This document shows positions 369 to 36,311 of a stretch of 64,000 nt of DNA, in pieces. The stretch is from Isoetes taiwanensis. Taxonomy: Eukaryota > Streptophyta > Lycopodiopsida > Isoetales > Isoetaceae. The DNA lies in contig JAJEKV010000124.1 of NCBI GenBank assembly GCA_021234155.1, forward strand, positions 1,629,094-1,693,093. The letters are read 5' to 3'. The notes under the pieces are model-generated. The model did no database searches. It had not been told where the DNA came from and saw nothing but the letters and a program-made list of their open reading frames with translations. Numbering within the stretch: position 1 is the stretch's first letter; every line of letters begins with the position of its first letter. Both the position numbers and the translations under genes were made by a program.

Positions 369-420
369 GCTTTCTTCTGCTAAACAGGGCTGTGATAGCT
401 TTGCTTCGTCTTCCACAACT

Positions 421-2390: not shown

Positions 2391-2396
2391 TCATGT

Positions 2397-3192: not shown

Positions 3193-3239
3193 TATGACTC
3201 CCAAATGTACCCGATTTTTTAGAAAATAAGGGTTTTATT

Positions 3240-6200
3240 TAGTAGAATGATGCAAATTTTCGAAATGTGTGCAGGTAGGTGGGATGGCAGGCCTTGTATC
3301 TATAAAGCACAAAAAGTGCCAACCGAGTTTGTGTCTCGCCCAAAGCGCCTACATGAGCGTGGTCTCGCCACGGTAGGCATTCGCAAATCGCATAGTGTAG
3401 ATTCATATTCGTGCCGGTCGAAATGGTCAGAACCAGGCAGACTATGGATTCACAATGAGCGAAATCACGGTTGCCATATCGGCGAGCCAATATTAGCTCA
3501 TGCGAATCGACTTCGAGTTGAGGTGCGAAGCGAGATAAACCAAAATGGCACAGAAGAAATGAGAAGCCAACTCGGGAAGCTCATTCGTCGTGGAGAGTTG
3601 ATGAAGGATGGCGATGGCGGGATGACCTTAGCGGGTGGTAGAGCTGGAAGGTCGCTGATTTCCTTGAAACGCCATATTCTGAGGCGAAGCTCTCGAAGAG
3701 GTTGCTGAAAATGGAGGATGTTTGGGTGCACAACACTTTCCGGTCGTTGTTTAGAAGCTTTACAAGAAGGAAAAGAGGCGTGTGGCTTTGGTAATCAAAC
3801 TCATCCTCGGCCTCCCTATCCGATGGCGCGTGGATGGTAATTTGGATCTGTCTCTTCTTGGACAAGACATATCGGAGTTCCAACCGGGGGATCTAATTGC
3901 GGTGGGCCCGGATATTGGTAAACGTCCATGTTTAATATTATCTATTATTATCTATTGTCATTACGTTCAACCTATGCTTTTCGACGCATGTTGTTTAGTT
4001 GATATTATTATCTCGTAATCCATCCATGTACTCCATTCCTATGTGAATAGAATGTTTTTGTCTACATTGAGAACATCCCAATGACGTGCAATTTACGAGC
4101 GGTAATATCTTATTTCATGGAGGCCTCCACGAGGAAATTGGGCGCCCGCCCACTTTCCTTCGAGGAGGAAATTGGGCGCGCCGCCCATTTTCTTTTCGGG
4201 AATAGTCTCCTCCGCCTGAAACTGGCCGCCGACTTTGCCCTTCGGATGGCACGAAGGTAGTTTCATGAAGGCTTCCACTTCGGGAAAATTGGGCCAGCCC
4301 ACTTTCCTTCTTCTTCTGCAAAGGAAAGCGAGAAAAGCGTGGTCGAACCGAAGATAACAAGCTGAAACATAACAACGAGAATCATGCACAACACAGTTAC
4401 ATCATCATATCATATAAAGTTATGAAATACATGAGTCATAGATTGTAATTATTGGTGATTCTATTAATCTCAAAAAGCTCGCTCGGAACCCACAATATGG
4501 ATAGTAACATGATACTCGCCAGGAGTCTTTCTTTCGACCGATGGCTATACCATACAGACCCGGGGATCGAGAGAGATCCCTTTCAACTCATGAGGCATAA
4601 AAGATGGTCATAGGTCATAAGGCAAGTAAGGGTGTCAACATGGGGCTGTGAAGATGGCGAGACATGGCGGTGGAATGTCTTTGTGGCGTCGAATGCGACT
4701 ATATTTATAGCCAAGGAATTATTGATGACTCTTGTAGCGGCATTATTGGTTGTATATACGGTGTACATCCAATAATCTTTGCGTTACAATACCTTCAATA
4801 ATGATTGTGGGTATAAATATATCTCAAACAATTTTGACCATCAAATTTGGCCTTCGTCTAGCCATGTGGTCTCGATCGGTCTGAGCATTGATTCCATCAA
4901 GCGCAAGATGAATCCGCGAAAACTTCAAGCGATCTGCCCATGGCGAGATACCCATGGAAGGCGGATGACCACGATTCGCTCTAAATCCTCGCCATTATCC
5001 ACGATCCCTTCGACGTTATCATCCATCGATATGGAATAGAGAGCATCAAATGTACATGATAGAGAAGATCATTTGGGGTGCACAGTGAAAATGACTCGAG
5101 GAGAGTCCCCTAAATGAGCAACTTGTCATCTTGTTGTAATCGGTTGTAATCATCTATGAGATAAAGTATTAGTACAACTTGTCTTCTATATGTGCAACTT
5201 GTCCAACATGTCCGTGAAATTGGGCGCCCGCCCACTTTGCCCTTGAATGCTCATATGTCGTATGATCTTGAAATTGGGCGGCCGCCCAATTTCGGCGTAG
5301 TATATAGGTGTACCTTATCTCACGGTTACATTGCGCTAGTATGTCGCCAATAATTGACATCAATAATTTCTCACGCCTATAAAAAGCGGCTCCTTTGCAT
5401 TCATCTCTCATGGCTTCCTTGCCGGATCGTCCAGGAGAACATCCGATCCTTCAAGTGCTACTTGAGTTACAACGATATTTGCCGGTGCTATATGGTGGTG
5501 TTAGTCTTGATCCATGGCTCGGTCCAAAGCGGATGGACTGCGAGTAATGCGGGGAAGCTCACTCGTGTTGAGGTCCACTGTGTTGGCTTCACGATCGGCG
5601 GATCTTTGGTGAATGGCATCGCCTTGGCGGCGTTGACGACGAGTGACTCTTTGTACACTCGGATATGTTAATCTTGACAAGGATATAATAATGTTGTAAG
5701 GATGTAATAAGCATAGTCAATATTATATAATGTAGCGTGCACGGTAATTCACGAGGTGCGCTCTTTGATCTCCACTTTTTTACCGCGGCTCCACTTCACT
5801 TCATGTTTGATGGCGCTTACTCTTGCCCGATAAATTGGGCTCCAGCCCAATTTCTGCTAGCGGAGGATAAGCTTGAGTCAAATAAATTTAATAAAAGGCT
5901 ATAGTTTGTAAGGGTTAGCCAAATTCGGCGGGCGCCCAATTTGGTTAGCAAAGTAAACTAGAGAAATTTAAGACAAGGAAATGAGTGCAACGTTATCATT
6001 TCTGAAAAAGAAGTATGAACAATTGTTATTAACATATTTCACGTATTTTCAACTCATAAATTCGCTCATTAAATGCGGAGGCACATCTTCCGAATGATCC
6101 CTCTTTTTGGGTTCTCCATCTTTGGGGCTGAGGTTGTTGTCTTTGCCTCTTTGATCAATTCCATTCTTTGCATAAAATCTTGGACCCCAGTTCCTCATTC

Positions 6201-6300
6201 TCATCATGTGCACCTTGATTGTCTTACGTGTTTAGCCACCTCTTCCTCTACATCTTGGTGCTCATCGTGTTGGGGACCACATCCTCTCCATCTGATTGTC
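3240..6300. other. CpG-rich transposon interior without a recognised gene
   Basis: Several open stretches of 60-150 codons exist on the plus strand (for example 3247-3708 and 5354-5671), but none has a motif I recognise, and the high CpG content makes chance open frames common. Palindrome copies occur at 4135-4156, 4169-4190, 5218-5239, 5271-5292, 5832-5853 and 5921-5942, plus a degenerate one near 4286. The stretch at 3690-3925 looks coding (LLKMEDVWVHN on the plus strand) and may be a captured gene fragment. Confidence 0.4.
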
Positions 6301-6304
6301 CCCT

Positions 6305-6529
6305 TCATGTGTTTCCATGACAACGCAGTCGTCGCTCCCTAGCAACCTCCTCCTCGAACTTTGAGGTCGCCTCAATCATGTCCTGAGTATTCACCAGTCC
6401 CGTCCCTGCCAGTGCGTTGATGTTGTTTTTTCTTCGCCTAAATAGTTCCAAATCCGGAGAGCCTAGGGCCGCTGCCCTTTTGAGCTGTACTTGAATCGCG
6501 CTCTTGTCCTGTCTCAGAACTGATTGCAC
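6305..6529 (-). pseudogene. Fragment of an unknown reverse-strand gene in element 1
   Basis: A 74-codon open frame rich in charged, helix-forming residues (for example LELFRRRKNN and EATSKFEEEVARERR). It lies downstream of, and in the same direction as, the larger reverse-strand gene at 6908-8035 and could be its last exon or a separate product. Another open stretch occurs at 6638-6838. I do not recognise either, and no function can be given. Confidence 0.3.
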
Positions 6530-6907
6530 TTCGTTTATAGTTGTAGGCGAGCGGACAAAGGTGTCTCGAGGCGGGAAGGCGGGGGCTGAGGAGGCGGTTT
6601 TGGAAGTAGAGGCCTTCTTCTTTCCCTCTTTTTCTTCTTACGTAGTGCCCGAGCTCTTGATTTTTTCTCGTCTAACATGACATCGAGTTGCTTTCGAATA
6701 TACGTACAAGCTTAATTTCCAGCTTCTCGTGCTCTCAAAAGACAATGTTTTATAGCCCTTCGCTGCTTTTGCCGCTCGGCTAAAAAGCACCACCGAAAAG
6801 AAGTCGAAACGATTGCAACCTTCCGACATCAACCACATACTAGATAGGTGCCGTCCTACTTTCCAAGCGATTACGCACCGGTACTCCTCCCCCCCACTTT
6901 TGCACCC

Positions 6908-8035
6908 TTATGTCGCACCAAAGGTCGTCTGACCAATAAAGGCTTGCCGCGGAAAACAAATGTTAGAAACATTGCTAGTCAACAAGCAAATTGGGCGGGC
7001 GCCCAATTTAAAATGCATACCTGCTGCACACTCGTGATCAGGCAAATTCTTTTCGATGTCCTGTTTTTCTCGTAAATGCTTGGGAAACTTAGCATATTGC
7101 TTTGGATGGTCGGAATTGGCGAAGCAAATATTTATTTCCTGTACTGATGGCGTAGCCGCTGCGTCTCTGGCAACATACATTAGCAGGACAAGACATTGCA
7201 ACTCTCGAACTCTAGAGGTAGTCGCAGTTCTGGCCGGGGGGTCCTGGTAGGAACCAACCCAAACACGGCTGCCACCGTCTATTGTCTTCATGGCGGATAG
7301 GCACTCATTGAGGCGGTCTGGGGTAATAAATATAGCTACCCAGTAAAGCTGCTGGTCCGTCATCGTGCTTAGCTGGTCAAGGAATTTTTCATAATCTTCC
7401 TTTGGCCATTTCTTCGTATATCTGAAGTCGCATCCAATGAAGCGGGCCGAAGTGTTTACCACGTCCACGCACAAACCTCCCGGACTAACGTGGAAACACT
7501 TGAAAGGTTTGCCACCCTCCTCAACCGGCCCTAGAAGATATTCGTCTACTTTGCTGTAGAGGGACTCCGGAAAGCTTTCCTTCTCCATCTCTTTGCGTCC
7601 TTCTGCCCATCCACTGATGCTACTTGCGAACATAAGCATCAGATTCTCCGTGAATATGGGGTGAGCTTGCCTCAAGGCAGCCATGTCTTGAAAAGGAAGT
7701 TTCTTGACTCCTTCATGTATCGACAAGGGCCCGCTCCATTGTTCCAATCTTCTTGACTCACGGCTCGCTTTTCATAGTCGTCTCGGTATAATCCTTGCTT
7801 CCCTTCGGGGAATGTGGTGCCATCCTTGATCTCCTTCACCCTTTGCGGATCTAGAGGATGCATGGACTTTAATGGGCGGCGCGAAATTATTGGTGAAAAG
7901 TCTAAGCCTATCCTTCACCTCAATTTTTCTCCCTTCTCGTCCTTCAACCGGTCTTCCCGTAGAATAAGCGGGCAACCGGTGCACATATTCCACGACTAAA
8001 TCGTCAAGATATACAAAGTAGTCGTAGTCACGCAT
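6908..8035 (-). pseudogene. Unknown reverse-strand protein of element 1
   Basis: Three overlapping minus-strand frames (7772-8035, 7672-7863, 6908-7747) continue one protein of roughly 350 residues if two frameshifts near 7860 and 7740 are allowed. It begins MRDYDYFVYLDDLVVEYVHR and later shows FIGCDFRYTKKWPKEDYEKF, LYWVAIFITPDRLNE and RVWVGSYQDPP. The composition and ordered hydrophobic pattern look like a folded globular protein, not noise. An alternating strand/helix pattern could fit a Rossmann-type fold such as a methyltransferase, but I see no decisive motif, so I leave it unnamed. It is divergent to the DUF7869-type gene and may be an accessory protein of the transposon. The last 30 or so codons run into a palindrome copy (6988-7009). 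Confidence 0.5.
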
Positions 8036-8139
8036 AGTTGACTTCTTAATCGTTTGCGGCCTTCTGACTTTCCAATCTGCATGACAAAGAAGGCACGGAT
8101 AAAGGCATACACATCATCTTAATTTGCTTGCGTGGTGGC

Positions 8140-8325
8140 GCTTGATTGGGCGCCCCGCCAATTTCAGATCATCAAACACTTTCGAGGTTAAAGGTGGGCG
8201 CCCAATTTCGAGCGTTTTGAAATTGGTGGCGCCCTCTTTCTGCCGTTAAGGAAATTGAGGCCCCCCAATTTGAAAAAGTGCCAATGAGGCTGAAATTGGT
8301 GGGCGCCCAATTTCGAACTTAATGA
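8140..8325. repeat. Cluster of degenerate GGGCG palindromes
   Basis: Five imperfect copies of the AAATTGGGCG / CGCCCAATTT palindrome lie within about 170 bp, several reduced to GGTGGGCGCCCAATTT or lacking part of one arm. They sit between the two parts of the reverse-strand gene block, in non-coding or intronic sequence. Confidence 0.7.
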
Positions 8326-8357
8326 ATAAGGAGGAACTAGTAATGGTGGTAGTGCAC

Positions 8358-9406
8358 TTACGAATAAGCTCCACCGGCAGTGCCGCGTTTGCCCTTACGT
8401 GGCTTCATGGGAATGCCCATTGGTTGCGAAGCTGCTTGAATTTCTTCGAAAAATACTTCCTCGTGTATAGTCTTCTTTGTTATGTCATTATTCTCACAGC
8501 TTACGAGCGTACTCGATTCTTTGTGAGATTTCCTGCCGGGACTCGGCATTTCCTTTTGGCATAGAAAAAAGAATATCGGGTTACGCCAAGTGCTTCCTTC
8601 CTTCGAGGAGGCCATGCCAAAGCTTGTGTGACAAGCGGTTGAGCAACCGTGGTCGTATGGTTGCCATTAACAATCGATGATACGCATTTTGCGGATCCTC
8701 GACTTCTTCCACTTTATTGCTGCGCCATACATGCGTGGATCGAGCGGCGCGACATCGGCCGCGGGGAGGGTGCATCGATGGGCGATAAGCGATTAGGTAG
8801 AGAGTGTCCAAGTGCTCTGGACTTATGACCCTACAAGTCATATTTGCGGGGCTTTATGCATCTTGAACACATCGACTTCAATCTGAAGCCCACCCCGGGG
8901 TAGATTCTCTCCACATGCTTGATGCTTGCTATGGCGCTTTGTGACAACTCATATACGCTCTCACGGTGGCGTCGCCACGGATGGAGTGAACTTCACGATC
9001 TGCGGCTACTCTCCGGTTGTTCGGATGAAGAAGAAGACAAGGACTCCCTCTCCAAAGTTTTTGGGCTCTGTGATAACCGTCCGCTTGCGCCTCTTGACGG
9101 ACCACCTAAATCTTTTCCCATGCGCTTAGGGGTTCCTCTTGAGCCTTGGTCCTCTTACGCACTTTTCGCATCGGGCGACCTTGATGTTCTCTTCATTCCA
9201 CCCAAATATAAGTTTAGTGGCGACTTTTTACGGTGAATAGCCTTAGCGGTGTCCTCGCCTTCTTGGCTGCTTGTGTCGGGCTCCATTTCGCTGCCCCCCC
9301 TTGTCTTTATCTCACCTTTCTTGTATCTAGACTTAAGCCACTTAGTATCGTACACTTTAGGTTGGTTTTGCCACGATACTCCGTGAGCGATTAACTTTCG
9401 ACACAT
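8358..9406 (-). pseudogene. Upstream portion of the reverse-strand gene block in element 1
   Basis: Minus-strand open stretches at 9155-9406, 8581-8841 and 8358-8615 look like successive broken parts of one or two proteins. The first is lysine/serine-rich and probably disordered (SEMEPDTSSQEGEDTAKAI). The second has a more ordered pattern (CRVISPEHLDTLYLIAYRPS and LLMATIRPRLLNRLSHKL). They lie upstream of 6908-8035 on the same strand, so they could be earlier exons or a separate gene. No family is recognised. Confidence 0.3.
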
Positions 9407-10025
9407 TACATTTGTGCTCTAATATCCTTTTGTCGGCGGCGTAGTAGCCATCAAAATATCAGTTCTTGATTTGATGCCCGGCGCTCTAAACTTTCATATG
9501 AGTCCGGCGCCCATCCTTTACGGCGCAAGAATGTGGGCTTTCCTTTATACTTGCGTTCATCATACATGGCTCGTGCTTAGATAGTGGAACTTTATAGCGG
9601 ACAAAAGTCCGATCTCACGGTGTCTTCAGCGTCGATGAGGAAGTCATCATTGTTCGCGAGCGACACCTCCATGTCGATGGCGATACCCGCGAATTCATTT
9701 TTCCTGCCCCTATCTTGCCAAAGAAAAGCGAGAAGATCCTTGAGGTGGTTTATGCGGGACCCGGGATGAATATTCCCTATCTCTATGCACCAGACCCATT
9801 AAATCGACCAACAAAAACTTCATGGGGCACAACACGGATGCCGACAAAGCAGATCTTTCTCTTCTTACATTCTTGCATTCTCTATTGCAATAGCCTCTGC
9901 AAATTTGGGTCGGTGCAAGGACCCGAAGCGATCTGCTTTGTTCGCGCCATATTAATTCTGCGAGCGGAAAGTAGTGTTAGTACTTGGGAGACTTGGGGCT
10001 GAAGAGGCATTGTTGCGATGGAGGC

Positions 10026-10338
10026 AAATTGGGCGCCCGCCCAATTTGCCCTGATCCCCACGCACACCAAATTGGGCGCACGCCCAATTTTCTCGGCTCA
10101 ACTCATGGTGAGCCTTGAGTCCGAGGGAGGAGATTTGTATCATTGGGGGCCAAATTGGGGCCAATTTTGCCAGATCCCCACGCATACTAAATTGGGCAGC
10201 CCAATTTTGCAATCCCACTAAACTAAAGCCGCCCAATTTACTTATCCCTCACCAAAAAGTGGTGCGGGCTTCGGTTTGCCTATCGAGAGCACTACCTTGG
10301 ATGGTAGACTTGGTCCGACTAAATTGGGCGCCCAATTT
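10026..10338. repeat. Palindrome cluster of element 1
   Basis: Copies occur at 10026-10047 (full arms, centre CC), 10069-10090 (centre CA), about 10152 (arms reduced to AAATTGGGG / CCAATTTT), 10189-10207 (short form) and 10321-10338, where the arms meet as a perfect 18-bp palindrome AAATTGGGCGCCCAATTT. The last copy is embedded in a larger inverted repeat: 10286-10320 and 10339-10373 share CTTGG, a stretch reading GGTAGACTTGGT, and GAGAGCAC in opposite orientation. Confidence 0.85.
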
Positions 10339-11149
10339 AGTACGACCAAGTCTACCATCCCGGTAGTCGTGCTCTCCTGGATAGGCAACTGGCCCCGCCT
10401 CACTTTGGTGTGCTCCGGATAGCAACCGGGATACCGCCCACATTGGGTCCAATGTCCAATGTTTTGCAAAAATGAAACACTCTAAGGGAAGCAATTGGGT
10501 GCCCTATTGGAGTTCTCGCATATATGCATCTGTGGGGACTAGTGAGGCATCTAGAAGATGTTCATATGTCCGAGATGTTATAGCGGGATACTTAATCAGG
10601 CAAGCGCTCAAGTTTATATTTAGAAAGTAGTCCACCTTACCTTTGCCACCGGTGGTGGGGCGAGATGCCATCAACTGCTAGAATTCCTTGGTGTACAGGG
10701 GTACCCAGGCGATAGGTCAATGCAGAGAGGAAGGCGCCAACAGGATGGCGACAAGCGGCCGAGAGACACAAGGCGCCAAGAGAGACACAAGGCGACAAGC
10801 TCGATCCGAAGCCGACAGCTGGTTCGGGAGTATAGTGCGGGCTGAGAACGACTTTCGTGGCTAAGAAATATGAAGGCGACAGTGTTTAGCGGAGCACAAA
10901 GCGTAAAGAAGCCGCGAATTTTCTAAATCTGCAATCGAGGAGAATGAGGGGCTTTTAAAGGGTTATGGACCTCTCTTGGGGGCGAAGACAAATTATGCGT
11001 GCATGTAAGCGCTTGGCCCTTTGAAATAAAAATGGACCGTTGATGGCTTCGAGCGTGAGGAATTAATTGTGGACCTTAATAATGAGTGCGCGGATTTCTT
11101 GAATTTCAAATCTGTCATTTAAAGCCCGCCCAAAATTAATTCGAGTCAT

Positions 11150-11166
11150 GCACGTGTCGCACGTGC
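11150..11166. promoter_or_regulatory. Double CACGTG box in a possible promoter
   Basis: GCACGTGTCGCACGTGC contains two CACGTG cores, the G-box bound by plant bZIP and bHLH factors. It lies about 1.2 kb upstream of the DUF7869-type frame in an AT-rich stretch with CCGCCC and GGCGGG boxes (11120-11180). Element 2 has a related CCACGTG in similar AT-rich sequence near 29985. Promoter function is inference. Confidence 0.3.
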
Positions 11167-11812
11167 TTTAGGCGGGAACTCATTTTTGAAAGTTCCGGGA
11201 CGGACACATTATTTCGAAATTAGGTGGGACATTTAACTTTAAAATTTGGGAAATTACATTCAAATTTTGGGGAATTCATGTTTAAATGTAAATGCGCTTC
11301 AAACTGTTGTTTTTTACGGCGGTGCCTTGTTTGGCTACTATCTTTTCTACAAGGCGCAAACATCTTCAGCGATTCATATTCATGGCCACGAGATCTCCAA
11401 AGGTTTGTCTTTGCTCCACAGTTAAATTCGCCATACCTCGATGTGTAATTCTTTGCAAATGTGATGTTACCCGATTTTATCAATCACGCCTTTCCATTCC
11501 GCGGTTGTTCATTCGCACCTCTTCAAGCACGCCTGTTCATTCACACCTTTCCATTCACGCCTTTTCGATGGCTTGACCCTTGATTTACTCCTCCTCATTC
11601 AACCTAAGTTCTTTGTCACATTTACATAAACTCTAAATTTCGATCACGATCCGCCCTTTTCACGAAATTGTCATGCGGGGATTTGTGTGCTGCTATTTTC
11701 TCCATTAACCCTTGTTTGTAGTCGGGCCCTTCAATGCTCGATTGTATTTGTTTTGGGAGCTCAATGATAAATTCAGTTAGTGTGCGCCTCCTTAGTTCTC
11801 TTAGTGTGTATG

Positions 11813-12338
11813 TGTAGGTGACCAGGTAGGTGAAACTGCCCGGATGGGCAAACTGTATCTCGAAGGTGTTTTATCTTGGTGACAACTAAATTGGGCGGGC
11901 GCCGAGTCTCTGCCTACTTCACAAGTCTTTAACCACCACGAACAAATAGGGCGGGCGCCCAATTTGTGCGCGGATATGTCCTCATCAGAGAGACAACCTT
12001 CTTTTCTACCCATTGTGAGGGCCGGCGCATCAATAATACCCTTTTATAAGCGCCTGATTCGGTTCAAATTGGGCGGCCGCCCAATTTGCAACAATGGGAC
12101 AAATTGGGCGGTCGCCCATATTGTCCCTTTCTGTACATGACCAGATAGGTGAAACTGTCCGGGTGGGCCAGCTGTATCTCGAATGTGTTTTCTCTTGGTG
12201 ACAGCTAAATTGGGCGGACGCCGAGTGTGTGCCTACTTTACAGCTCCTCCACCACCACGAACAAATTGGGCGGGCGCCCAATTTGTGCGCGGATATGGCC
12301 TCTTCAGAGTGAGAACCTTCTTTTCTACCCATTGTGAG
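11813..12338. repeat. Two tandem ~205-bp units, each with two palindromes
   Basis: 11813-12017 and 12134-12338 are near-copies: both start GTGA/ATGA then CCAG..TAGGTGAAACTG and both end TTCTTTTCTACCCATTGTGAG. Each carries one half-palindrome (AAATTGGGCGG.CGCCGAG) and one full palindrome (11945-11966; 12263-12284). Between the units are two more palindromes (12066-12087 with a perfect GC centre, and 12101-12122). Confidence 0.8.
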
Positions 12339-15300
12339 ACTCACTGCATCCAATACTAACCTTATACAAGGGGAATCTAAACACCTCATACGTAAAAAAG
12401 GGCACCCGCCCAATTTTATTGTCCTTGTAACCATTGAATGGGAGTCCCCCCAGGTCATTTGCATTGCTTTCTCGTCTTCCTTACTCGATTTTAACACTAC
12501 TGAAATCCTTGTGCAGGTTGTGTATCTCTTCCTTAATGAACATCTAGTAGCAAAGGGAGTTGTGGGGCAAATGACACAATGCCACTTCAAGGAGATATCG
12601 AAAGGACTACTGAGCGTAGGTGTGGAGGAAGTGTTGAAGGCCACCACACCCTTCCCCGGCCAACTCGGATGCAACCACAATAGCGTAAGCCGTGGGCTCA
12701 TTCGCTCGTGGAGAAGTGAAGATGCTCGTGGAGTCGCCTCGCTAATGGCGTCCCCAAAGAAAGGCAAGGACAGCGGTGGGGAAGGAGACACAACCCCGCC
12801 CGACAAGATATACCCTTCTAGAAAAGGATTGTGAGATATGGCACTCATGCGACTCCATTATTGCGGAAAGGGATTCATATCTTTCAACGGCCCCGATGAT
12901 GCGGTTTGTGACCAGTTTAGGGTTTCAAGTTTGTGGGAGTATCATGGCGAAGGTTTCCCTCCCTTTACGAAGTGAACATCCGTTGCGGGGGTTGCTTGCA
13001 GGTGCCGGGCCGGGCATGCTCGTGAGATGGAGCAATGACCTGCCTCTGTGTTGGCCGGAGTAAAGGTCTCCGGAGATATTGACCGCACACCGCAACAGAA
13101 GCGAATATTGTGTCCGGCCGGGGGGAGCTCGAGAGCATCGAAGCACCCAAATTATGAGAAAGCGACATTACACTTTTCATTCCGACAACCCGGGGAAGGT
13201 TGTTAGGCCACCAAAGCTTGCTCGTCTCACCACTCGAATGCTATCCTCACTTACGGGGAGGACCTTGTGTTGCAAGAATAGGTGTTGTGTCGGGTTCTCT
13301 AGGAATCAAGTTGTTAACATGCGAAAGGAATTCCTTGCCATGAAATCAAGTGATAGGGTTACTTTTGTTTATGACATGTTAGCCAACAACATGAAAGGTC
13401 GAAGAGTGGGACGACCGGTCTTTGCGGGGGAATCTCGTTTGCGAAAAGGGCGTGGTACCTTGGTCTCGGGATCTCAAAGTCGGCGTATCTGAAATGGAAG
13501 GCCCAATTTCTTGAGGGTGCACGCAAGGCCGAACATGGTAACTGTGGCACCTTGAAGCCTCGCTCCTCGACGTTGGCATGTGAGGCCGTGTTTTCCATGT
13601 TCGTGAGGGAGAACGGTGAATCCTTGCCCCACCGTAGCAAGAGAAACGAGGAGGGGATAAGAGAGAATGTCGAGAAGTTGCCCGCAATGTTTACGAAGTC
13701 CAAAGATTCTAGAAGAGGTTAATGCGAGGGTTGTGGCATTGATCGGCAAGAAGGTATCACCGACGTGTTTTCATAGAACGTGGAGGCGGAGGTTCCGGAC
13801 GTCGAGATCGCAAAAGAAAATTGCATTCTCCAAATGCGATACATGTGAGGTGATCCGTACGAAGTTACTGAAGACCAAAGATGAAGGAGAGAGGAGGCTG
13901 TTGCATGATGAAAGAAGAGCGCATAGACTCGAAAGGGCCCTCGTGTCGCACACAAGATCGGGTCGTGGAGATTATACTCCCACGGTATCCCTACCAATAT
14001 CTTTGTATTATTCACGACAAAATGGATCAAGCCAAAACAATGATTCCAAAATTGCAACAATCAGAAAGTCTCTCTGGAGACTTGACAAGTCGAACAACGA
14101 CATTGGTGGTGCATTGACTCATGGTCATGGGAATGGATCTTATGGAAACTTTGCCCGGACTTATGGGCGAGATGACTCCAACTTCCATGTAGGTTCTTTG
14201 AATAGCATCTTGAAGAGATTAGAGATGGGGCACGCAGTATGCAGGAGGCCACCGTCGGGTCCTCGAATCATCTGCTCCAAAATGGGTCTCCTCATTCGAG
14301 AGACACAACGGCCTTGGAGTCAAAGTTGTCACTATCCAATACCAGCATACCTGCTAATTTGCCACAGGCACAGGGACCATCATTGAAGCCTCTGCCCAAG
14401 ATACTTTATTTGCAGCTGGACAACGCATCTGGACAGAACAAGAATAGGTATGTCTTCTCCTATCTTTCTTACCTAGTATATCTTGGTGTGTTTGAAGAGA
14501 TTGAGCTAGGGTTCATGATGCCCGGTCACACACATGATGATATCGATGCCTTGTTTGGTAACTTCTCTACATCTTTAAAGAAGGCAGAGGTGCTCACAAT
14601 GCCAGAACTACTGTATGAATTCCACAAATGCAACTTGAATACACCCGTCCCCTATGTTGTTGACAAAGTTCCGGATTGGAAGGGTTTTATAGAAGGCTAC
14701 ATACCAGATGGGGATGATAGATTGACAGGTCATACCACCCCTCTAACTTTCAGATTCGCTATGAATGGTGATTGGCCAGTCATGTATTACAAAACTAGAC
14801 CCACTTACCTGGATTGGTTGCCTGCTGGTGGAATAAAAATGTGGAAAGAAAAAGAGGACGGGAAGCCCATGATGCCAGTTGGATATCCTAAGCTGCTTCC
14901 TCCCAAGAAATCGGTGAAGGACCTTGGCCTCGCTTGCGAAAACAAAGATCCACAAGCATATATTGCATTGGGTTGCTTGTTCAACGTCTAACAAAGGTGC
15001 TCCAGAAACTGCCAACTACTCGGCACAGTTCACGGCCACGATTGAATATTGGATGAAACTCTTGCAAGAACTCGGGAACATCAGCAGTGACGAAGGCACT
15101 TATAATGACTTCTGGCCATGTACTAGGCAAGCACAAGCTCCACCTCATGTAGCTGTAGTGGTAGAGCCAATTGCTACTATCACTCCTCCTTATGTCGGCC
15201 CTGGAAGGACAAACTGTCTTTGATTCAACCCATACAAAGATTTGAAGAAAGGTATGTTTATTATGGCATACGATGATGTCTTTGTGCCCAACTTGGGTGG

Positions 15301-15551
15301 GCCTAGCTACTGAGGACCCACAAATGGATGATAAGAAGGAGAACTTTGAGACTATTCTGGTGACTTGGTGGGAGCCAATCCCAGTGAGGAACCAAGTCTA
15401 CCCAGCTAATTATGCCAATTGTTGGAAGAAGAGATGGAGGCCAACGACTGCAAGTGACCGCATAGAAGTGGAGACTATCGACTACGCTTGGGAGCCATCA
15501 AACAAGAAGAAGATACCTAATACTATTAAGATACCCGTGCATCTTCTTTGA
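12334..15551 (+). pseudogene. DUF7869-type putative transposase gene of element 1 (frameshifted)
   Basis: Successive frames (12334-12834, 12776-13063, 13079-13492, 13500-13720, 13667-13960, 13881-14117, 14239-14991, 15273-15551) read as one long protein broken by several frameshifts, some possibly introns. Central parts show a cysteine-rich block (CCKNRCCVGF) and CDTCEVIRTKLLKTKDEGE with a following His/Arg-rich helix. IIHDKMDQAK then precedes the core: LYLQLDNASGQNKNRYVF and, 25 residues on, GHTHDDIDALF. Asp in DKMDQ, Asp in LDNASGQNKNRY and Asp in GHTHDDID are spaced as in RNase H-fold (DDE/D) transposases. This layout is that of the DUF7869 family, common in transposons of seed-free plants and protists; the DDE reading is my inference. 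The C-terminal part (VTWWEPI, then DYAWEPSNKKK) may be a small beta-barrel. The gene ends about 120 bp before the right TIR. A damaged inverted copy is at 33140-34591. Confidence 0.7.
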
Positions 15552-15647
15552 GGCATATCACAAAGACTTTCATGAGGATGTCAACTAGTGTATGAAAATG
15601 AGTCATTCATCCAAGTCTACTAAAAAATGGTCCATAAATTCAGGTAT

Positions 15648-15673
15648 TGTCCATAATTAATGAAATTGTGCTT
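15648..15673. repeat. Right TIR of element 1
   Basis: The minus strand reads AAGCACAATTTCATTAATT then ATGGAC, matching the left end with one T/C and one G/A difference. Just inside, GTCCATAA is repeated directly twice about 20 bp apart; element 2 retains this. The target-site duplication TTAT follows at 15674-15677. Confidence 0.8.
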
Positions 15674-15714
15674 TTATGCCATGTAGCATCAACTACCGGG
15701 GGGGGGGTGGGGGG

Positions 15715-21302: not shown

Positions 21303-21330
21303 GCCCAGCAACGCTAGGCACTTTTTCTAG
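21303..21330 (+). mobile_element. Helitron 3' terminus
   Basis: GCCCAGCAACGCTAGGC forms a hairpin (one mismatch) followed by a short T-rich spacer and CTAG, then T. This is the standard Helitron 3' end (stem-loop 6-12 nt before CTRR, insertion before T). The same hairpin, without the mismatch, is at 50196-50222. The 5' end (TC) could not be located, so the length is unknown; the element lies to the left. Confidence 0.65.
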
Positions 21331-23358: not shown

Positions 23359-23360
23359 TA

Positions 23361-27779: not shown

Positions 27780-28339
27780 AAGCACAATTTCATTATATAT
27801 GGACTTTCCCTAAGTCCATATGCCTCTGAAATGAACCCAAATTTTTAGAATATAGGGGTTTTTTTTATTAGAATGATGCAAAATTTCGGGAATCGTGGCA
27901 GTAGATGAGATGGCATGTTGTTTCTATTCAAAGCTTCCGGCCCTCTCCATGAATTCTTGAAGCTCAAGACTTATTTTCCTCCTCTTCTACCTCATGTGGA
28001 GCCGACTTCTCGATTTGTCAAGACTCTCATAGCCCTTGATTCTGCACAACAATAAAAGTTCGGTTAGAACAAAAGATTATGTTCCAAGGGCCAAACCGGG
28101 CATGGCAAAAAGTTTTTTCCTCAAGGGCAAACCGGGCGGGCCTAATTTGCCCTCTAGATGGTGTTGCCTTTGCACACCGGATTTGTTTTAAGAGCCAAAT
28201 TTGGAGCCTATTTGTATGAATATTATGTTTAATTATTATGTTTATTAAAGTCCTTCAACAAGCTTTCTAACCAACTAAAGAACATAGAAAATGGAATCCA
28301 AATGCAAAAGTTATGCCAAAAGTTCTATTCGCCACCTCG

Positions 28340-29480
28340 AACCCCAAATGGTTCCGGGTGGCGTAATAGATTTGTTTGGCATGACGCTTGCATCCCGACT
28401 CCGCTTATGCGCCCTTAGCTCGTTGAAAAACTTGTTCAGAGATCTTTGATAAAAATATCTAATTGGGCATAATGTTTATACAAATTGTCCCTTTGGCTCA
28501 AATTGGGCGGCCCAATTTAAGGGCTTCCGGGTGGCGTAATAGATTTTGGCATAATTTTTGCATCCGTAGTCCCATTTTGGCATTTTTATCTCGTTGGAAA
28601 GCTTCTTCAAAGAGCTTTGACGGAGGCACTAATGAAGCATACTATTTAGAGAAATAGGCTCGTAATTTGACTCAAATTGGGCGGGCGCCCAATTTAAGGG
28701 GTTCCGGGTGGCGTAATAGATTTTTGGCATAACTTTTGCATCCGGACTGATTTTCGCATTTTTATTTCTTTGGAAAGCTTCTTCAGAGGGCTTTGATAGA
28801 GGCACTAATGAAGCATACTATCTATAGAAATAGGCTCGTAAATTTGACTCAAATTGGGCGGGCGCCCAATTTAAGGGGTTCCGGGGATAAATTTTTGGCA
28901 TAACTTTTGCATCCGACTCGATTTTGGCATTTTTATTTCGTTGGAAAGCTTCTTCAGAGGGCTTTGATAGAGCACTAATGAAGCATACTATTTATAGAGA
29001 TGGGCTCGTAATTGGGGTCAAATTGGGCGGCGCCCAATTTAAGGGGTTCCGGTGGCGTAATAGATTTTTGGCATAACTTTTGCATCCGCATCTGATTTTG
29101 GCATTTTTATCTCGTTGGAAAGCTTGTTCAGAGGGCTTTGATAGAGCACTAATGAAGCATACTATTTATAGAGATGGGCTCATAATTGGGGCTCAAATTG
29201 GGCGGGCGCCCAATTTAAGGGGTTCCGGGTGGCGTAATAGTTTTTTGGCATAACTTTTGCATCCGACTCGATTTTGGCATTTTTATCTCGTTGGAAAGCT
29301 TGTTCAGAGGGCTTTGATAGAGCACTAATGAAGCATACTATTTATAGAGATGGGCTCGTAATTGGGCTTAAATTGGGCGGGCCCAATTTGAGGGGGCTCA
29401 AGGGTGGTATAGTGTAGGTTTCTCGACATAACTTTTGGTTTTGGACTCTGTTTTAGGCGTGCATTAGCTCGTTGGAATGC
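28340..29480. repeat. ~175-bp tandem repeat, 6-7 units, one palindrome each
   Basis: Palindromes begin at 28500, 28674, 28851, 29020, 29195 and 29370, so the spacing is 169-177 bp. The body shared by all units includes GGGTGGCGTAATAGATTTTTG, the string CATAACTTTTGCATCCG, TCGTTGGAAAGCTT and GATAGAGCACTAATGAAGCA. The unit has no similarity to the repeat units around the same palindrome at 11813-12338 or 34590-35290. The terminal units are the most divergent, as in arrays kept uniform by unequal exchange. Confidence 0.9.
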
Positions 29481-29499
29481 TTGTTCTGAGTGCTTGGAG

Positions 29500-30480
29500 G
29501 GGCTCTATGCTGGTGGGCAACATGCATGTCGAATAGCAAGATAAGAGAAAAGCAAGGACATGTATCCCCACCAAAAGCAAGAAAAGGAAGGATCATCCAT
29601 GTCAAAAAGTAGGGGAACAACATTTGATGTGCATATATAAAGCATGTAAGGAGGACAAAACTATATAAAAAGAACTAAAAGCAATAAAAAATGAAATGCA
29701 CTAACCTTTCACGGTCTTAGACATGCAAAAATGCTTCAAAAAGTCTTCTAAAAGATGGGCACCTTCCTGGACGAGCACACCCAATGGAGGAGGAAGAAAA
29801 CAACCACCTTGCAGCTCTAAAATGATGTCCTAATATTTGAAAAGCGCATGGATAAAGGTTGCATGGAGGATGGCACGTGGCATCATAAAGGAAAGATCAT
29901 GGGGATATTTGGTGGGCCCATAATGCATCACAAAATAAACCCCCTTTTTTATGACTATTTAAAATTTAAAATAAAGTTGCCACGTGTGTGGTTATTGAAA
30001 TTCAAAATTCAAATTTGAATTTCCCCCCCTCGACTTAATATTGCCAAAAGCTCTTACTACCCATTCTATGTTCTCGACATCTTGCCATCCATCTTTGGCG
30101 CTCTTGACTAGCCGTTTTGCCACCACAAGGTAGATTTTGTCTTTTTTATTCGCACATAGCATATACTAGTGTAATGCACTACTACTTTTGTAGTTTTTTT
30201 TTGAAGTTGTAATCTTATTGCTATTGTAATTTAAATGTTTAATCGTGTGTTGATCTCCTTTGGTTAATGCTCTTAGCTAAGAGTTGCATTATGCATTGCG
30301 ACACTCATGATGAGATGATGAGACACATCTTAGGCTTCAAGAAGAGGTTCGAGCTTTTATCCGAAATCACATAGCTAGTTGTGGCGTGATTTGAATTAAG
30401 GATGTGCGTGCACAAATCTGTCAAGACTAAATCTCGCAACTAAATGGGATGCCTAATTTTATGCACACATATAAGGCCGA
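29500..30480. other. Element 2 interior without a gene
   Basis: A-rich sequence with no supported frame. An AT-rich stretch at 29950-30030 contains CCACGTG and alternating AAATTC/GAATTT strings resembling the possible promoter of element 1. Confidence 0.4.
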
Positions 30481-30785
30481 ATCTTATGCACCGAAATAGG
30501 GGCGGGACGGCCAATTTGAGAGCCCAAATAAGGCGGGCGCCAATTTTAGGGCCAAATTGGGCGAGCCCAATTTAAGGGCAAAAAAAAAAAAAAAAAAAAA
30601 TTTTTAGCCCATAAATTGGGCGGACGCCCAATTTGATTGGCCCAGAATTGGTTGTCTATCCAATTTGGGCTCATTAATGTGAGTCATTTTTTCTCTCCCA
30701 TTTTTTTAAAGACATTTTCACCAAGTTTTGATATGATTTTCATGTGTATTATGCTTGAAATGAGGCGGCCGCCCAATTTGTAATG
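30480..30785. repeat. Palindrome cluster in element 2
   Basis: Degenerate copies lie near 30490 and 30533, a short form at about 30556, a good copy at 30613-30634 (centre GA) and a half-copy near 30767. A 22-nt A-run interrupts the cluster at about 30579. Confidence 0.75.
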
Positions 30786-31354
30786 ATATATCTTTCATCG
30801 TGTGTGACCGGGGGCTTCTAGGATTGAAGATCCATAACCGGGTTCTTGACATTCAAAGGTGGACGCCCTGGTTGCCAAAGGGTTTGTTGCCCATGGAGGG
30901 TGCAGATACTCTAGGGGAGCCTAAAGACTCGAAACCATGATGTTGTGCATCGATTGACATTGAGCCAAAGACCTTCAAGTCTAAAGAAAGGCAGGTGGAA
31001 GATGTAATGGGGCAACACCATTAACTAGGTATACCTTGAATAATTAGAATGTGACATCCGCGTGCATGGCATCACAATATCTTCGAATAGTCTCGTATTT
31101 TCTTACAGATCGATGTTACAGCCTCTCGACCAAAAATAATGAAATTGTGCTTTTTGGACTATTTCATTATATATGGACTACTACAATGACAAAGCTATAT
31201 GTGCCATCCAAGACTTGAGCTAATTTGGACTTTTAACAAGAAGGCAATTTCATCGGTTGGCACTATCTATTGTCTCAGATATCTGCGGGTCTCATCGTAA
31301 GAACATGAATGTCCATTTGACGAGCCATCCGTGAAGTTCTTACTTGTGAGATTT

Positions 31355-31720
31355 CTCTCTGCAACCGGACGATTCATTTGTACAAAACAGAAATAGGTAT
31401 GTGATTTCATATATTTTACATATTTCAATAACATGTGCACATCTTTGATGATGATGAGAGGTTGATTTGGGCACATTGGGCCTCTAGTTTTTGAGTTTGA
31501 GTGACCACCATGTACCACCAAAGCGTCAAGCCATCACCGCGAGAAGCATTGGTCTGTGAAAAGATAAACCTATGCCCAGGTGATGTCTTGTGTCTAACGT
31601 GGGAGATGGAAGCCAATGACTGCTAGTGACTACATAGAGATAGAGACTATCGACTATGTTTGGGAACCGTCAAACAAGAAGAAGATACCCGATACTATCA
31701 CGATACACGTGCAGCTGTGA
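31355..31720 (+). pseudogene. Decayed DUF7869-type gene remnant in element 2
   Basis: 31360-31430 encodes SFVQNRNRYVISYI, aligning with SGQNKNRYVFSYL of element 1. 31590-31700 aligns with the C-terminal part (WEPSNKKKIPDT here, WEPSNKKKIPNT there). The sequence between is largely lost or inverted. No product is expected, so this element would depend on a transposase from elsewhere. Confidence 0.65.
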
Positions 31721-31840
31721 AGGCATATGCAGTACTTGCAGGGGATGTCAATTAGTGTATGAAAAAGAGTCATTCATGCAAGTGCATTAAAAAATGGTCC
31801 ATAAATTCAGGTATTGTCCAAAATTAATGAAATTGTGCTT

Positions 31841-31940
31841 CAACATGCCAAGGTGGCTCAAACATGCCACGCGGCTCCAACATTCCACCTAGGCTCAAAT
31901 ACGACAAGGTGGCTCAAACATGCCAAGATAGGAAGGCCGC
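31841..31940. repeat. 19-bp minisatellite, right segment
   Basis: Five units with the same CAACATGCCAAGGTGG / CCACCTAGG alternation follow directly after the right end of element 2. The array ends at about 31940. Confidence 0.9.
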
Positions 31941-33139
31941 AGATGTTTGAACTGTCGGATGCCCCAAATTGAAAACAATAAGGGAAAAAAAGCTTAAGTA
32001 GCCAAGTATACAGTTTTCGATAAAAATTGAAAAAAGTAATGGAAAAAAAGCTTAAGTTACCCAGACAAAGGCAAAAGGGAAAAAGATATACACGTGCCAA
32101 ATTTATAGTTTTCGATAAAAACCCAGTAAGGGCTTGACCCTTAAAAACATCGGGTAATCTTAGAGGTTATAAAAAAATGCTATGTATTTTTTTGTCGTTG
32201 GCTAGCCTTTGATGTGGAAGATTCTAAAGAATCTTCCATGATCCAAAGATGATAGAGATAAACCGCCGAGATCTCGATCTCGGTCCTAACATCCTATTGG
32301 CTGAAGATTTCTTCAGTTCTTGCTGCTCTGTGTGTTTGGCGGCCTCCATTCTGCCTTGGCGCCTTCATTCCACCTTGGCGCCTTACCGCTTTGCCGCCAG
32401 ATCGTCCTACTGCCTTAATACCTTGCCGCCTTACCATCAGATCATCTGATCCATTCCGCATTACGAAATAAGATGCCAGATCTTACTTCTACTTGCTGAT
32501 TAATCTGTCTTCTTAATCTGTCTTCTACTTGATTTCTTACTTGGTTTCTGTCTTCTACTTGGTTTCCGTCTTCTACTTGGTTTCTTACTGGTGATTAATC
32601 TGTCTTCTACGTGTTGAGGAGGTTCAAATCCTTAAGTTTCCGGTAAGGCAAGAGCCAGGCTCTATTTTGTCCTTGTTTGAATCCGATGTCTCCTCTTTCA
32701 GATGTCTCACTTGCTACCTTTTGTTTCAGATGTTTCGTAGGCCATCTGGAAAGCATCCTTGCTTCAAATGATCAAGTCCGGCGCCCAAGTCCAGGGCCAT
32801 TTTGAGAATGCTAAGTCTGTTAGTTTTTGCTTATTTATAAAACCAAATGCAATTTCAGTCTGCAAGAAAATATTCATGAGGACACAATATTTAAGGAGAG
32901 ATTCAGGCCAGATTTTGCCCCAGTCAGAAATGGTAAGCAACGTGGATATTCAAGAACTTTAGATTGATACTTGTTTTCCGCATTATAGCAGTGAATAGGA
33001 CCTTTATATGTAGACTTTTCTTCTTTTGCAATAAACTTGCAAAAGAAGAAACTTGCAATACAATTGCTGCAAAAAGCTTGGAAAGTTATGTTTCTAGTGC
33101 CAGGAGAAGCCCAAATGCAAAACAAAACCAAAGAGAATG
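31941..33139. other. No gene; short simple repeats
   Basis: Noted: GCCTTGGCGCC and related strings at 32350-32430, similar to 35405-35560 and therefore perhaps more transposon DNA of the same family. Also a set of four to five CTGTCTTCTACTTGG repeats at 32508-32615. A direct repeat containing AGTTTTCGATAAAAA occurs at about 32012 and 32106. No frame has support. Confidence 0.4.
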
Positions 33140-34591
33140 CAATTTTCTCTGTGATACTGACATCCCGGAAGCTCCGCCTCCACGTTCTATGAAATCCAGT
33201 CGGTGACACCTTCTTGCCGGTCAGTGCCACAACTTCTGCATTAACCTCTTCGAGAATGCTAGACTTCGTAAACATTGCAGGCAACTTCCTGATGTTCTGT
33301 CTTATCCCGTCCTCGTTTCTCCTGCTGCGGTGGGGCAAAGATTCACAGTTTTCCCTCACAAACATGGAAAACACAGCCTCGCATGCCAATGTCGAGGAAC
33401 GAGGCTTCATGGTGCCACAGTTGCCATGTTCGGCCTTGCGTGCACCCTAAACGAATTGGGCCTTCCACTTCAGGTATGCCGACTTTGAGATCCCGAGACC
33501 AAGGTACCACGCCCTCTCGCAGACGAGATTTCCTTGCAGCACTAGCCGTCCTACTCTTCGACCTTTCATGTTGTTGCCGAGCATGTCATAAACAAAAGTA
33601 ATCCTATTACTAGATTTCATAGCAAGGAATTCCTTTCGCATGTTAACAGCTTGATTCGTAGAGAACTTGACGCAACACCTATTTTTGCAGCACAAGGTCC
33701 TCCTGTAATTGAGGATAGCATTCTGACTGGTGAGACGAACAAGCTTTGGTGGCCTTACAACCTTCCTGGGCTGTCGGGAATGAAAAGTGTAATGTCGTTT
33801 CTCCTAGTTTGGGTGCTTTTGATGCTCTGAGCTGCCCTGGCTGAACACTATATCTGCTTCCTGTTGTGGTGCCGCGGTCAATATCTCCGAGACATTCACT
33901 CCGCCAACACGAACGAGGTCATTGTTCCATCTCACAAGCATCCCCGGCTTCGGGAGCTGCAAGCATCCCTGGCAACGGATATTCACTTCAGAAGAAGGGG
34001 GGGAGAGAATCTTCAGTAACAGATACTCCCACAAACATCAAACCTAGAAACTGGTCACACACTGCATCATCAGGGCCAGTGAATGATATGAATCCCTTTC
34101 CGGTGATAATGGAGTCGCAAGAGTGCCATATCTCACAATCCATTTCAAGAAGCGTATATCTTGTCAGCGGTTGTGCCTCCTTTCCCACCTCTGTCCGCTG
34201 TCTTTTTCTGGGGACGTCATTAACAGACGACTCACGAGCATCTTCACTTCTAGCCCCTGGCTTCTGCTATTGTGTTTGCATCTGGAGTCGGCCAAGGAAG
34301 GGTATGGTGGCCTTCAATCACTTCCTCAACATCAACACTCACTACTCCATTCGGTATTTCCTTGAAGTGGCATTGTGTCATTTGCCCCACAACTCCTTTC
34401 TCTACCAGTAAATCATTAAGGAAGAGATACACAACCTGCATAAGGATTTCAGTTCTGTTAAAACCGAATAACGAGAACGAGAGAGCAATGCAAAAGACAT
34501 AGGGGCATGGCAATTCAAGGGTTACACGGACAATGAAATTGGGCGGGTGCCGATTTTCACTTGTGAGGCTGTTAGATTCTCCTCGTTGCAA
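33140..34591 (-). pseudogene. Broken DUF7869-type gene, N-terminal part
   Basis: Frames at 34250-34591, 33988-34188, 33804-34034, 33447-33695 and 32874-33410 match successive parts of the gene at 12334-13830: LVEKGVVGQMTQCHFKEI, then DCEIWHSCDSII, then GMLVRWNND, then CCKNRCCVKF, then VVALTGKKVSPTGFHRTWRR. The catalytic-like core (DNASGQNKNRY, GHTHDDID) is absent. Comparing the two copies gives the frame of the ancestral protein, because they are broken at different points. Confidence 0.7.
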
Positions 34592-35290
34592 ATTGGGCGG
34601 CCGCCCAATTTGCCCACATTAGGGGCTTGTATAACGTTAGTATTAATGCATTCAAAGTCAGATTGGGCACCCGCCCAAGTTCACCTTCTGGACATGCCAT
34701 GATCGCGGACAAATTGGGCCCCGCCCAAATTGGCCCTTGTTGTAGAAGAACATTTAAGGGGGTAGAGACTCGGAAGGTCAACTTGGGCGCCCGCCCAATT
34801 TAGCTGACAAAACTCCGAATAGATTGGGAGCCCCAATTTGCCAGCATTAGGGGCTTATTTCCACGTTAGTATCGATGCATTCAGAGTTAGATTGGGCACC
34901 CGCCCAATTTCACCATCTGGGCATGCCTTGATCACAGACAAATTGGGCGCCCAGCCAAATTGACCCTTGGTGTAGAAGAACGTTAAAGTGGGAGAGACTA
35001 GAAGGACAAGTTGGGCGCCCGCCCAATTTAGGGGATCTTGCATATGAACATGGAAAAACTAGGAGTAGAAATATAGGTGTCACCCCAATTTGCCCACATT
35101 AGGGGCTTGTTTCAACGTTAGTATTAATGCATTCAGAGTCAGAGCGGGCACCCGCCCAATTTCACCTTCTGGGCATGCCTTTATCGTGGACAAATTGGGC
35201 GCCTGCCCAATTTGGCCCTTTGTGTAGAAGAACATGAACGGGGGAGACACTAAAACAACATCTTGGGCGCCCGCCCAATTTGTGAAGAGG
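34537..35290. repeat. Three ~240-bp units with three palindromes each
   Basis: Units start at about 34609, 34838 and 35089 with ATTAGGGGCTT followed by CGTTAGTAT and GATTGGGCACCCGCCCAA. Every unit has three palindrome copies with differing centres (for example 34590-34611 with a perfect GC centre, 35010, 35191, 35262). Unit sequence is unrelated to the 175-bp and 205-bp units elsewhere. Confidence 0.8.
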
Positions 35291-35799
35291 GGATTTCTTT
35301 TAGGCACGACACTTGTCATGCGTGCATGAACGGTCCATAGCCCCTTTAAAAGCCCGTTCTGCTCTTCGACTGCAGTTTTAGAAATTTCTATGTTCTCCCT
35401 GTTGCCTTGGCGCCTTCTGCTCCACTTCACACTGTCGCCTTCGGATTCTCTATTCACCAATCATCTTCTCGTCCCCTTCCTGTCGGCGCCCTATACTCCC
35501 GAACCAGCTGTCGCCTGCTGCTTCTCAGCCGCTTGTCGCCTTCCTCTTGGTGCCTTCTTTTGTTGATTGTCCTATCGCCTTCGAATCCCACCAATTGATG
35601 GCATCTCGCCCCACGACAGGAGGCAAAGATAAGTTGGACTACTTGTATTAACGTGGCAGTATCTCTCAGCGCCTGCCTGATTGAGACTGCCACATCATAA
35701 ATGTGACCCTTAGGGTATCCTACCTTCCATTGTGGAAATTGGGCTGTGGCTAGCAATTTCGTCTCACTGGTCCCCACCAATGCATACCTCTCTGAAGAA

Positions 35800-36311
35800 A
35801 GTCGGCGGGCGCCCAATTCTTTCCTAAAGGGCGCATGATTTTGCTCAATATAAGGCCATTTGGCAAATCTGGCGGACGCCAGTTTGGTCTGGAAAGGGGC
35901 TTCATCACTTAAACAATTTGGACGAGCGCCCTATTTCTCCAGAAGGGACCTTGACAGCAAATTGGACAGGCACCCAATTTATTCAAATTGTTCAATCTGA
36001 GATATGGGCCATTGAATAAATTGGTCATTCGCCCAATTTCCTGTGACTGAGGACTTGATTGATGTCTTCTTATACCCATGGTTATTTAAACAAATTGGCC
36101 AGGCGCCTCCTTTCACGTTCATCCTGTTCCATGCCTCTCGCAGCAAATTGGGCAGACGCCCAATTTATTCAAAGGGAGCCTGACTTTCTTCAGTCTAAGG
36201 CATGGGCAATTGAGCAAATTGGGCGCCCGCCCAATTTGGTGTGAGAAGGGACCCTGATTATGTTCATCTTGATGCATGCCCCTCACACCAAATTGGGCGG
36301 GCGCCCGATTT
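35800..36311. repeat. Palindrome array, ~70-bp spacing
   Basis: About nine palindromes at irregular intervals of 40-75 bp: near 35803, 35873, 35918, 35961, 36022, 36092, then 36145-36166, 36216-36237 and 36290-36311. The left ones are degenerate (arms kept, centre and GGGCG eroded); the right ones are near consensus. Several are followed by TTTATTCAA. Confidence 0.8.

Follow-up and report, generated by a model that had tools for sequence, protein, structure and literature searches.

A 22-bp palindrome, AAATTGGGCGNNCGCCCAATTT (motif 1), recurs many times in a 64,000-nucleotide stretch of the Isoetes taiwanensis genome (GenBank assembly GCA_021234155.1, contig JAJEKV010000124.1, positions 1,629,094 to 1,693,093; hereafter the window), and this raises the question of why a short sequence stays the same while the repeat units around it are unrelated, and what reads it. 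We found that the palindrome belongs to one family of two-gene DNA transposons, that its arms are constrained and its half-sites held at a fixed spacing, that it lies close to the starts of the genes of the element, and that a sister clade has replaced it with another palindrome of equal length. These features suggest that each family has a switch of its own, recognized by a protein that it encodes itself. The palindrome is probably a family-specific cis-regulatory site, which a dimer encoded by the element would bind, keeping the promoters accessible against silencing. The two-gene layout, the sister motif, and an accessory protein with a histone H3-like start are new relative to the preliminary description of this DNA.

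The carrier family is recognized by AAGCACAATTTC ends, a 4-bp target duplication, and a DUF7869 transposase. The element termini read AAGCACAATTTCATTA, and a 19-base end, AAGCACAATTTCATTAATT, occurs in 255 exact copies genome-wide. Ten of the 11 copies in which both ends were seen have matching target duplications (TATG in L001 and in L003/L004, TTTC in L002, TAAA in L005/L006, AAAT in L016, TCTT in L018, ATTT in L020, CATG in S2, and TTAT and CAAC in the window), that of L011 being imperfect. The transposase gene lies at one element end and matches DUF7869 (PF25273) above the Pfam cut-off (E = 6.6e-37, 1e-38, and 2.8e-41); judged from the protein sequence, its conserved acidic positions look like those of a DDE transposase. 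We found no literature on DUF7869. When the genome was searched with the transposase protein, 150 of 11,168 first-look candidates were scored.

In the window, the exact palindrome occurs 12 times, with 37 copies at up to 3 mismatches and 45 start positions, two of them overlapping, at up to 5 mismatches (span 4135-36290); the earlier figure of about 50 copies therefore holds only if degenerate copies are counted. All 45 sites are inside two element copies and one fragment of the family and none is elsewhere, so that the proposed confinement within the window stands, and the surrounding repeat units are as described (207 nt at 11813 and 12132, a period of 176 at 28495-29395, and spacings of 229 and 252 at 34602-35281). 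The genome (1.658 Gb, 1,110 contigs) holds 2,720 exact sites, while the same pattern read backwards and a rearranged control palindrome of equal base composition with two more CpGs, AAATTCCGCGNNCGCGGAATTT, both gave none. Twenty genome sites were then examined for family sequence; they came from the first 50 sites listed (100 rows, both strands), with small contigs first, and are not a random sample. In 18 of them, sequence homologous to family elements at the nucleotide level lay within 901 bp (at least 100 bp of it in 17, only 57 bp in L034), and L030 and L040 had none within that distance; a smaller first element library had given 14 of 20, and of 41 control pieces taken elsewhere in the window, 6 matched family elements. 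The genome-wide density is thus tied to the family, and confinement of motif 1 to one transposon family is nearly right.

The two halves of the palindrome keep their distance. Genome-wide, the 8-base half-sites AAATTGGG and CCCAATTT are found 3,783 times across 6 bases, 163 times across 5, and 89 times across 7. Among facing half-sites in L001-L020 and the window, 100 have a gap of 6, 21 have gaps of 1-5, and one has a gap of 7, and divergent or direct arrangements in the same sequences show no peak comparable to that at gap 6. The two central bases vary and are G/C-rich.

We compiled 210 sites at up to 3 mismatches, 80 of them exact, from 16 single loci, two joined pairs, and three pieces of the window (21 element stretches in all), and from these 63 could be selected without pairwise similarity in their 50-bp flanks (E < 0.05; motif-like letters masked). 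The consensus of the 63 contexts falls away where the 22 bp end, apart from a preceding C (37/63) and a following G (30/63). Because the sites were selected by the motif, only the fall-off outside it is informative. Single-linkage clustering of the flanks had given 12 clusters, because neighbouring palindromes chain contexts, and was replaced by masking and pairwise testing. Constraint was measured from 93 anchors whose homologous places in two or more other elements had been located from the flanks alone, the motif being hidden; 39 non-overlapping alignments were compared, and the anchor copy, being motif-selected, was excluded. The arms differ at 0.098 per site, against 0.239, 0.188, and 0.190 in the flanks at 1-10, 11-60, and 61-100 bp, and they differ less than the 11-60-bp flank in 30 of the 39 alignments and more in 9. 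The outermost bases are the slowest (0-0.04 at positions 0-1 and 18-21) and the central CG positions the fastest (0.20-0.24). With CpGs excluded, the values are 0.064 for arms and 0.174 for flanks, a ratio of 0.36 (0.18-0.62 by bootstrap over alignments); in ordered comparisons CpGs were retained in 252 of 335 cases in the motif and in 726 of 1404 in the flanks. The expectation of the preliminary description that arms would be more conserved than flanks was borne out, and its inference of function from one motif in unrelated contexts survives both the family-density and the arm-versus-flank tests.

A second, accessory gene with several exons lies upstream of the transposase gene and runs in the opposite direction, and the position of the palindromes relative to both genes was surveyed in 20 element stretches. 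The accessory start could be placed in 12, comprising 11 with motif 1 and S2, a motif-2 element whose start was assumed at an internal methionine; L008, L012, L013, L014, L017, L018, L050, and W3, where the start is decayed, absent, or unfetched, were not counted. In all 12, the closest palindrome is centred at -69 to -133 relative to the accessory start, and in three loci fetched later it is centred at -81, -89, and -93, giving 15 of 15. None of the 12 has a palindrome from +0 to +1500 of this start, the sequences of L049, L051, and L052 ending sooner. Before the first conserved exon of the transposase, the nearest palindrome is at -54 to -221 in 14 of 17 stretches (112 bp away in element 1 of the window), and beyond the transposase start none of the 17 has a palindrome in the sequence retrieved (up to 3 kb). 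Extra palindromes stand between accessory exons. Measured from the transposase-side end, the first palindrome is about 3.25-3.5 kb away in L008, L012-L015, L017, L019, and element 1. Several copies are poor in genes: L001, L003/L004, L009, L017, L018, L020, and element 2 have only short transposase matches (13-57 residues), L002 and L011 have no transposase match, and no accessory-gene match was found in any of these. They nevertheless contain 1 to 16 palindromes each at up to 3 mismatches (13 in L001, 15 in L002, 16 in L018); both L001 and L002 have one at a distance of 270 bp from a terminus. Since these copies keep their palindromes, a promoter role alone is an insufficient explanation. In S3 (L058+L046), the accessory gene and the palindromes had seemed to be lost together, which would have favoured the accessory protein as the reader; this was rejected, because the accessory gene of S3 was found 13.5 kb from the transposase start, with palindromes in its promoter.

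The palindrome was also compared with that of related elements. Motif 2, AAATGGCGCCATGGCGCCATTT, has the form AAATGG(C/A)GCC-NN-GGCGCCATTT, is likewise 22 bp long with the AAAT ends of motif 1, and has 1,223 exact sites genome-wide. Ten transposase matches (L046-L055), picked by open frame and identity and hence non-random, were read upstream. Four of them with transposase cores 67-69% identical (L047, L053, L054, and L055) have 14, 19, 8, and 11 copies of motif 2 and none of motif 1, whereas the five with cores 79-87% identical (L048-L052) have 8-15 copies of motif 1 each and none of motif 2. L046 (88%) has neither motif in its 8.5 kb and belongs to the motif-1 element S3. Of 86 near-perfect inverted repeats of 22 bp that we counted in the nine loci L047-L055, 82 belong to motif 1 or motif 2. 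A tree of the transposase core groups the four motif-2 loci in one clade (support 1.0), and these four loci represent one switch of motif; the decayed, long-branch motif-1 copies L008, L013, and L019 adjoin this clade (0.743), a position that we put down to decay. S2, a complete motif-2 element, has the same layout, with an array that starts about 130 bp upstream of the accessory frame, another site between accessory frames, and one 109 bp before the transposase frame. Between the clades, accessory matches are about 22-42% identical, most of them below 32%, compared with 67-69% for the transposase core, and the accessory gene is, on these identities, the faster evolving of the two. In L053:28-984, a motif-2 array of 59-bp units has GAGCC instead of GCGCC in 11 of 16 left arms.

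The sequence MARTKQTAR is the start of histone H3, and ARTKQTAR represents H3 residues 1-8. In motif-1 elements the accessory protein begins with MARTKQTAR in L007, L010, L016, L019, L0056, L051, L060, and L061 (for example at L019:5282, L016:2277, and L005+L006:8518), with MARTKQTTR in L015, with MARTKSTAR in L048, L049, and L059, and with MARIKKTAR in L052. L051 and L019 encode identical residues there, with silent differences in 7 of the 8 codons that follow ATG. For unsaturated pairs, the ratio of nonsynonymous to synonymous substitution (dN/dS) is 0.13-0.33 in the middle accessory exon, 0.28-0.46 in the C-terminal exon, and 0.10-0.69 in exon 1, with values up to 0.14 in the transposase core; by this measure, purifying selection on the accessory protein is shown. 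A genome search with exon 1, in which 150 of 936 candidates were scored, gave among those scored 40 matches at up to 60% identity, of which 38 align from residue 1 (hand count). No MARTK start was found in the motif-2 element S2, whose accessory protein is still recognizable. By our own reading, the accessory stretches VNGNHS and LDFFSGGAF may be ParB-like and methyltransferase-like, respectively, Pfam matches being below cut-off. Among the papers listed on histone mimics or H3 tails and transposons, titles and abstract openings showed no transposon protein with an H3 tail. Outside the elements, MARTKQTAR also occurs at 49489 of the window, and a weak match to H3 lies at 50041-50193 (E = 9e-05); 49489-50193 is possibly a histone H3 variant gene.

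The two-fold symmetry, the fixed spacing, the sequence constraint, the position about 70-130 bp before both genes, and the difference between clades point to a site for an element-specific dimer. A dimeric element protein would recognize the 22-bp palindrome as one unit with a set distance between half-sites, and would occupy both divergent promoters, the accessory introns, and the arrays of non-autonomous copies. Such occupancy could keep the element transcribable and accessible and so counteract host silencing. We infer that the reader is a protein of the element, and the accessory protein is its predicted identity, with the transposase second, because the accessory protein diverges faster and has a site at its own promoter in every copy checked. 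The H3-tail-like start, ARTKQTAR, would suit a chromatin-acting protein and is a plausible effector arm. A bolder version, which we offer tentatively, is that the family is a second, independent anti-silencing lineage, in which the accessory dimer reads the palindrome, its ARTKQTAR N-terminus recruits or decoys host readers or writers of histone H3 lysine 4, and the protein has changed at least once along with its palindrome.

Several observations weigh against this account. Three of the 17 transposase starts have no close palindrome (L007, -429; L008, -450; L0056, -2561), and the 10.2 kb preceding the open transposase frame of S3 contain none. The palindromes of gene-poor copies fit a cis mobilization site equally well. 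Gaps are commoner in the motif (0.111 in the arms and 0.243 in the centre) than in the flanks (0.038-0.071), several of the 39 alignments share arrays and are not independent, and conversion between copies could be the source of part of the arm constraint. As for the proposed reader, exon 1 has dN/dS near 0.5-0.7 in close copies, indicating weak constraint, and the accessory pieces searched have no Pfam domain above cut-off. AlphaFold models of two pieces were poor, with mean predicted local distance difference test (pLDDT) scores of 41.8 and 47.0; Foldseek with the latter model gave no match at E up to 0.001, its weak matches being led by two methyltransferases, and phmmer against the PDB gave only E > 0.6. 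The sole helix-turn-helix match, a weak one (E = 0.0036, below cut-off), belongs to the transposase, and the accessory protein has none.

The alternative that survives best, although we consider it rather unlikely, is that the palindromes are transposase-binding sites required in cis for transposition as part of a synaptic complex, like the TNPA-bound subterminal repeats of CACTA elements. The motif type tracks the transposase clade, copies without genes retain their sites, some near an end, and the helix-turn-helix match just mentioned is in the transposase. However, where the genes are present, the sites cluster ahead of both of them and within accessory introns, kilobases away from the transposase-side end, and the empty 10.2 kb of S3 count against this explanation as well. 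Among the roles proposed in the preliminary description, a site for an element-specific protein fits; transposase binding may apply, but the gene-bearing copies have the sites near promoters and in introns rather than at the ends. Less likely again is that the element promoter uses sites of a host transcription factor of the E2F/DP, TCP, NF-Y, or GC-box type. The promoter-proximal position agrees with this, the half-sites contain ATTGG/CCAAT and GGGCG, and TTGGGCGC is one letter off TTTSSCGC, which we take to be the E2F consensus; because both motifs contain GGCG or GGGCG cores, an E2F-like host reader is possible. On the other hand, the sister clade carries a different palindrome, the constraint extends over all 22 bp, including the AAAT ends and a centre held at 6 bp, and 18 of 20 sampled sites sit with family sequence. 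The host NF-Y/GC-box enhancer array suggested earlier is weakened in particular, because the sister elements have replaced the motif with one lacking CCAAT. A structural signal, either cruciform DNA or a transcribed RNA hairpin, is improbable: an inverted repeat with a short, gap-rich centre would suit it, but the sequence itself is kept, as nearly all inverted repeats of L047-L055 are motif 1 or 2, and the spacing is nearly fixed; hairpin RNAs and insulator DNA, both candidates at the outset, found no positive support. Least probable of all is a passive or self-spreading mini-repeat without function, which could account for the many unrelated contexts and frequent tandem arrays, but which would not be expected to conserve arms and CpGs or to keep a set distance from the starts of two genes, and at W3:1759 the motif-free homologues in L010, L012, and L015 are equal in length and show no empty site.

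Features of the element copies in the window (TIR, terminal inverted repeat)
Feature	Position	Strand	Remarks
Element 1	3154..15673	+	Complete; TIRs at 3154 and ending 15673; TTAT target duplication
Palindromes in and beyond element 1 accessory gene	4135..7009		At 4135, 4169, 5217, 5271, 5832, 5921, 6988
Element 1 accessory gene, decayed	6206..9950	-	Start at 9950 reads MARTKQIAS
Two exact palindromes, element 1	10026..10090		Centres 86 and 129 bp upstream of accessory start
Seven palindromes before element 1 transposase	11888..12416		Two 207-nt units and single sites
Element 1 transposase gene	12517..15548	+	Several frames; DUF7869 match in frame 14206-14988
Element 2, non-autonomous	27780..31840	+	CAAC duplication; inserted in 19-bp minisatellite
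Element 2 palindromes	28495..30779		Array of 176-bp units and single sites
Element 3 fragment	about 33132-36311	-	Transposase fragment at 33132..34435
Element 3 palindromes	34536..36311		Upstream of element 3 transposase fragment

The surroundings of the three elements show further features. Element 1 is flanked by lectin receptor-like duplicates (299-3308 and 16026-17940) with direct and inverted blocks that are 90-98% identical. B-lectin/PAN receptor-like frames agree with a plant source. The minisatellite that hosts element 2, GGCTCCAACATGCCAAGGT, occupies 22488-27763 and 31842-31927, and similar frames occur in L058. A second terminal-repeat-like sequence is present about 690 bp inside one end at 31134 of the window, L011:1013, and L020:1105. 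Element 3 ends (36311) at about the expected start of the accessory gene, and another open frame, 36563-37024, begins about 250 bp further on, followed by a weak RING-finger match at 37473-37808; the frame beyond element 3 may have taken over the transposon promoter.

Sola-type DNA transposons make 4-bp target duplications, and the present family shares with them this duplication and, by our own reading, conserved acidic positions that look DDE-like. CACTA (En/Spm) elements have CACTA termini, a 3-bp target duplication, and subterminal repeats bound by TNPA. Like them, the family is a two-gene DNA transposon with many copies of a short motif that are kept in non-autonomous copies. Unlike them, it has AAGCACAATTTC ends and a 4-bp target duplication, and the motifs of gene-bearing copies are promoter-proximal and intronic, not subterminal, although L001 and L002 each have a site 270 bp inside an end. 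Histone-tail mimics occur in viruses and cellular proteins, and the accessory protein resembles them in being a non-histone protein that shows a histone-tail sequence; it differs in that ARTKQTAR follows the initiator methionine of a DNA-transposon gene.

The closest parallel in working is the anti-silencing system of Arabidopsis VANDAL elements, in which a protein binds its motif and DNA methylation is lost. There, VANC21 acts on YAGTATTAY and VANC6 on AGTTGTCC/AGTTGTAC (PMC5735166, PMC10398659), and the family-specific motifs lie in introns and intergenic parts and in tandem repeats (PMC5735166). The present system is similar in having a short motif in non-coding parts of one transposon family (introns, intergenic sequence, and upstream of the transposase), often in tandem repeats that differ between copies, with different motifs in related families and an accessory protein less conserved than the transposase. 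Its motif differs from the 8-9-bp asymmetric VANC motifs in being a 22-bp palindrome. VANDALs are Mutator-like, unlike the present elements with their DUF7869 transposase, terminal inverted repeats, and 4-bp target duplication; a Pfam search of accessory pieces, taken up to E of 5-10, gave no match to the VANC domains DUF1985 and DUF287, and the motif-1 accessory protein, unlike VANC, starts with the H3-tail sequence. Because transposon class and protein domains differ, the system would be VANC-like in its working but not a member of that group. If this account is true, private switches of the VANC kind have arisen at least twice among transposons, here in an unrelated transposon class, and the code is visible: the two palindromes have the same length, and each goes with one clade of the family. 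How an element recognizes itself without disturbing host genes would then become testable by simple binding and swap experiments, and an H3-tail sequence conserved at the N-terminus of a transposon protein would add a new route by which mobile DNA influences chromatin.

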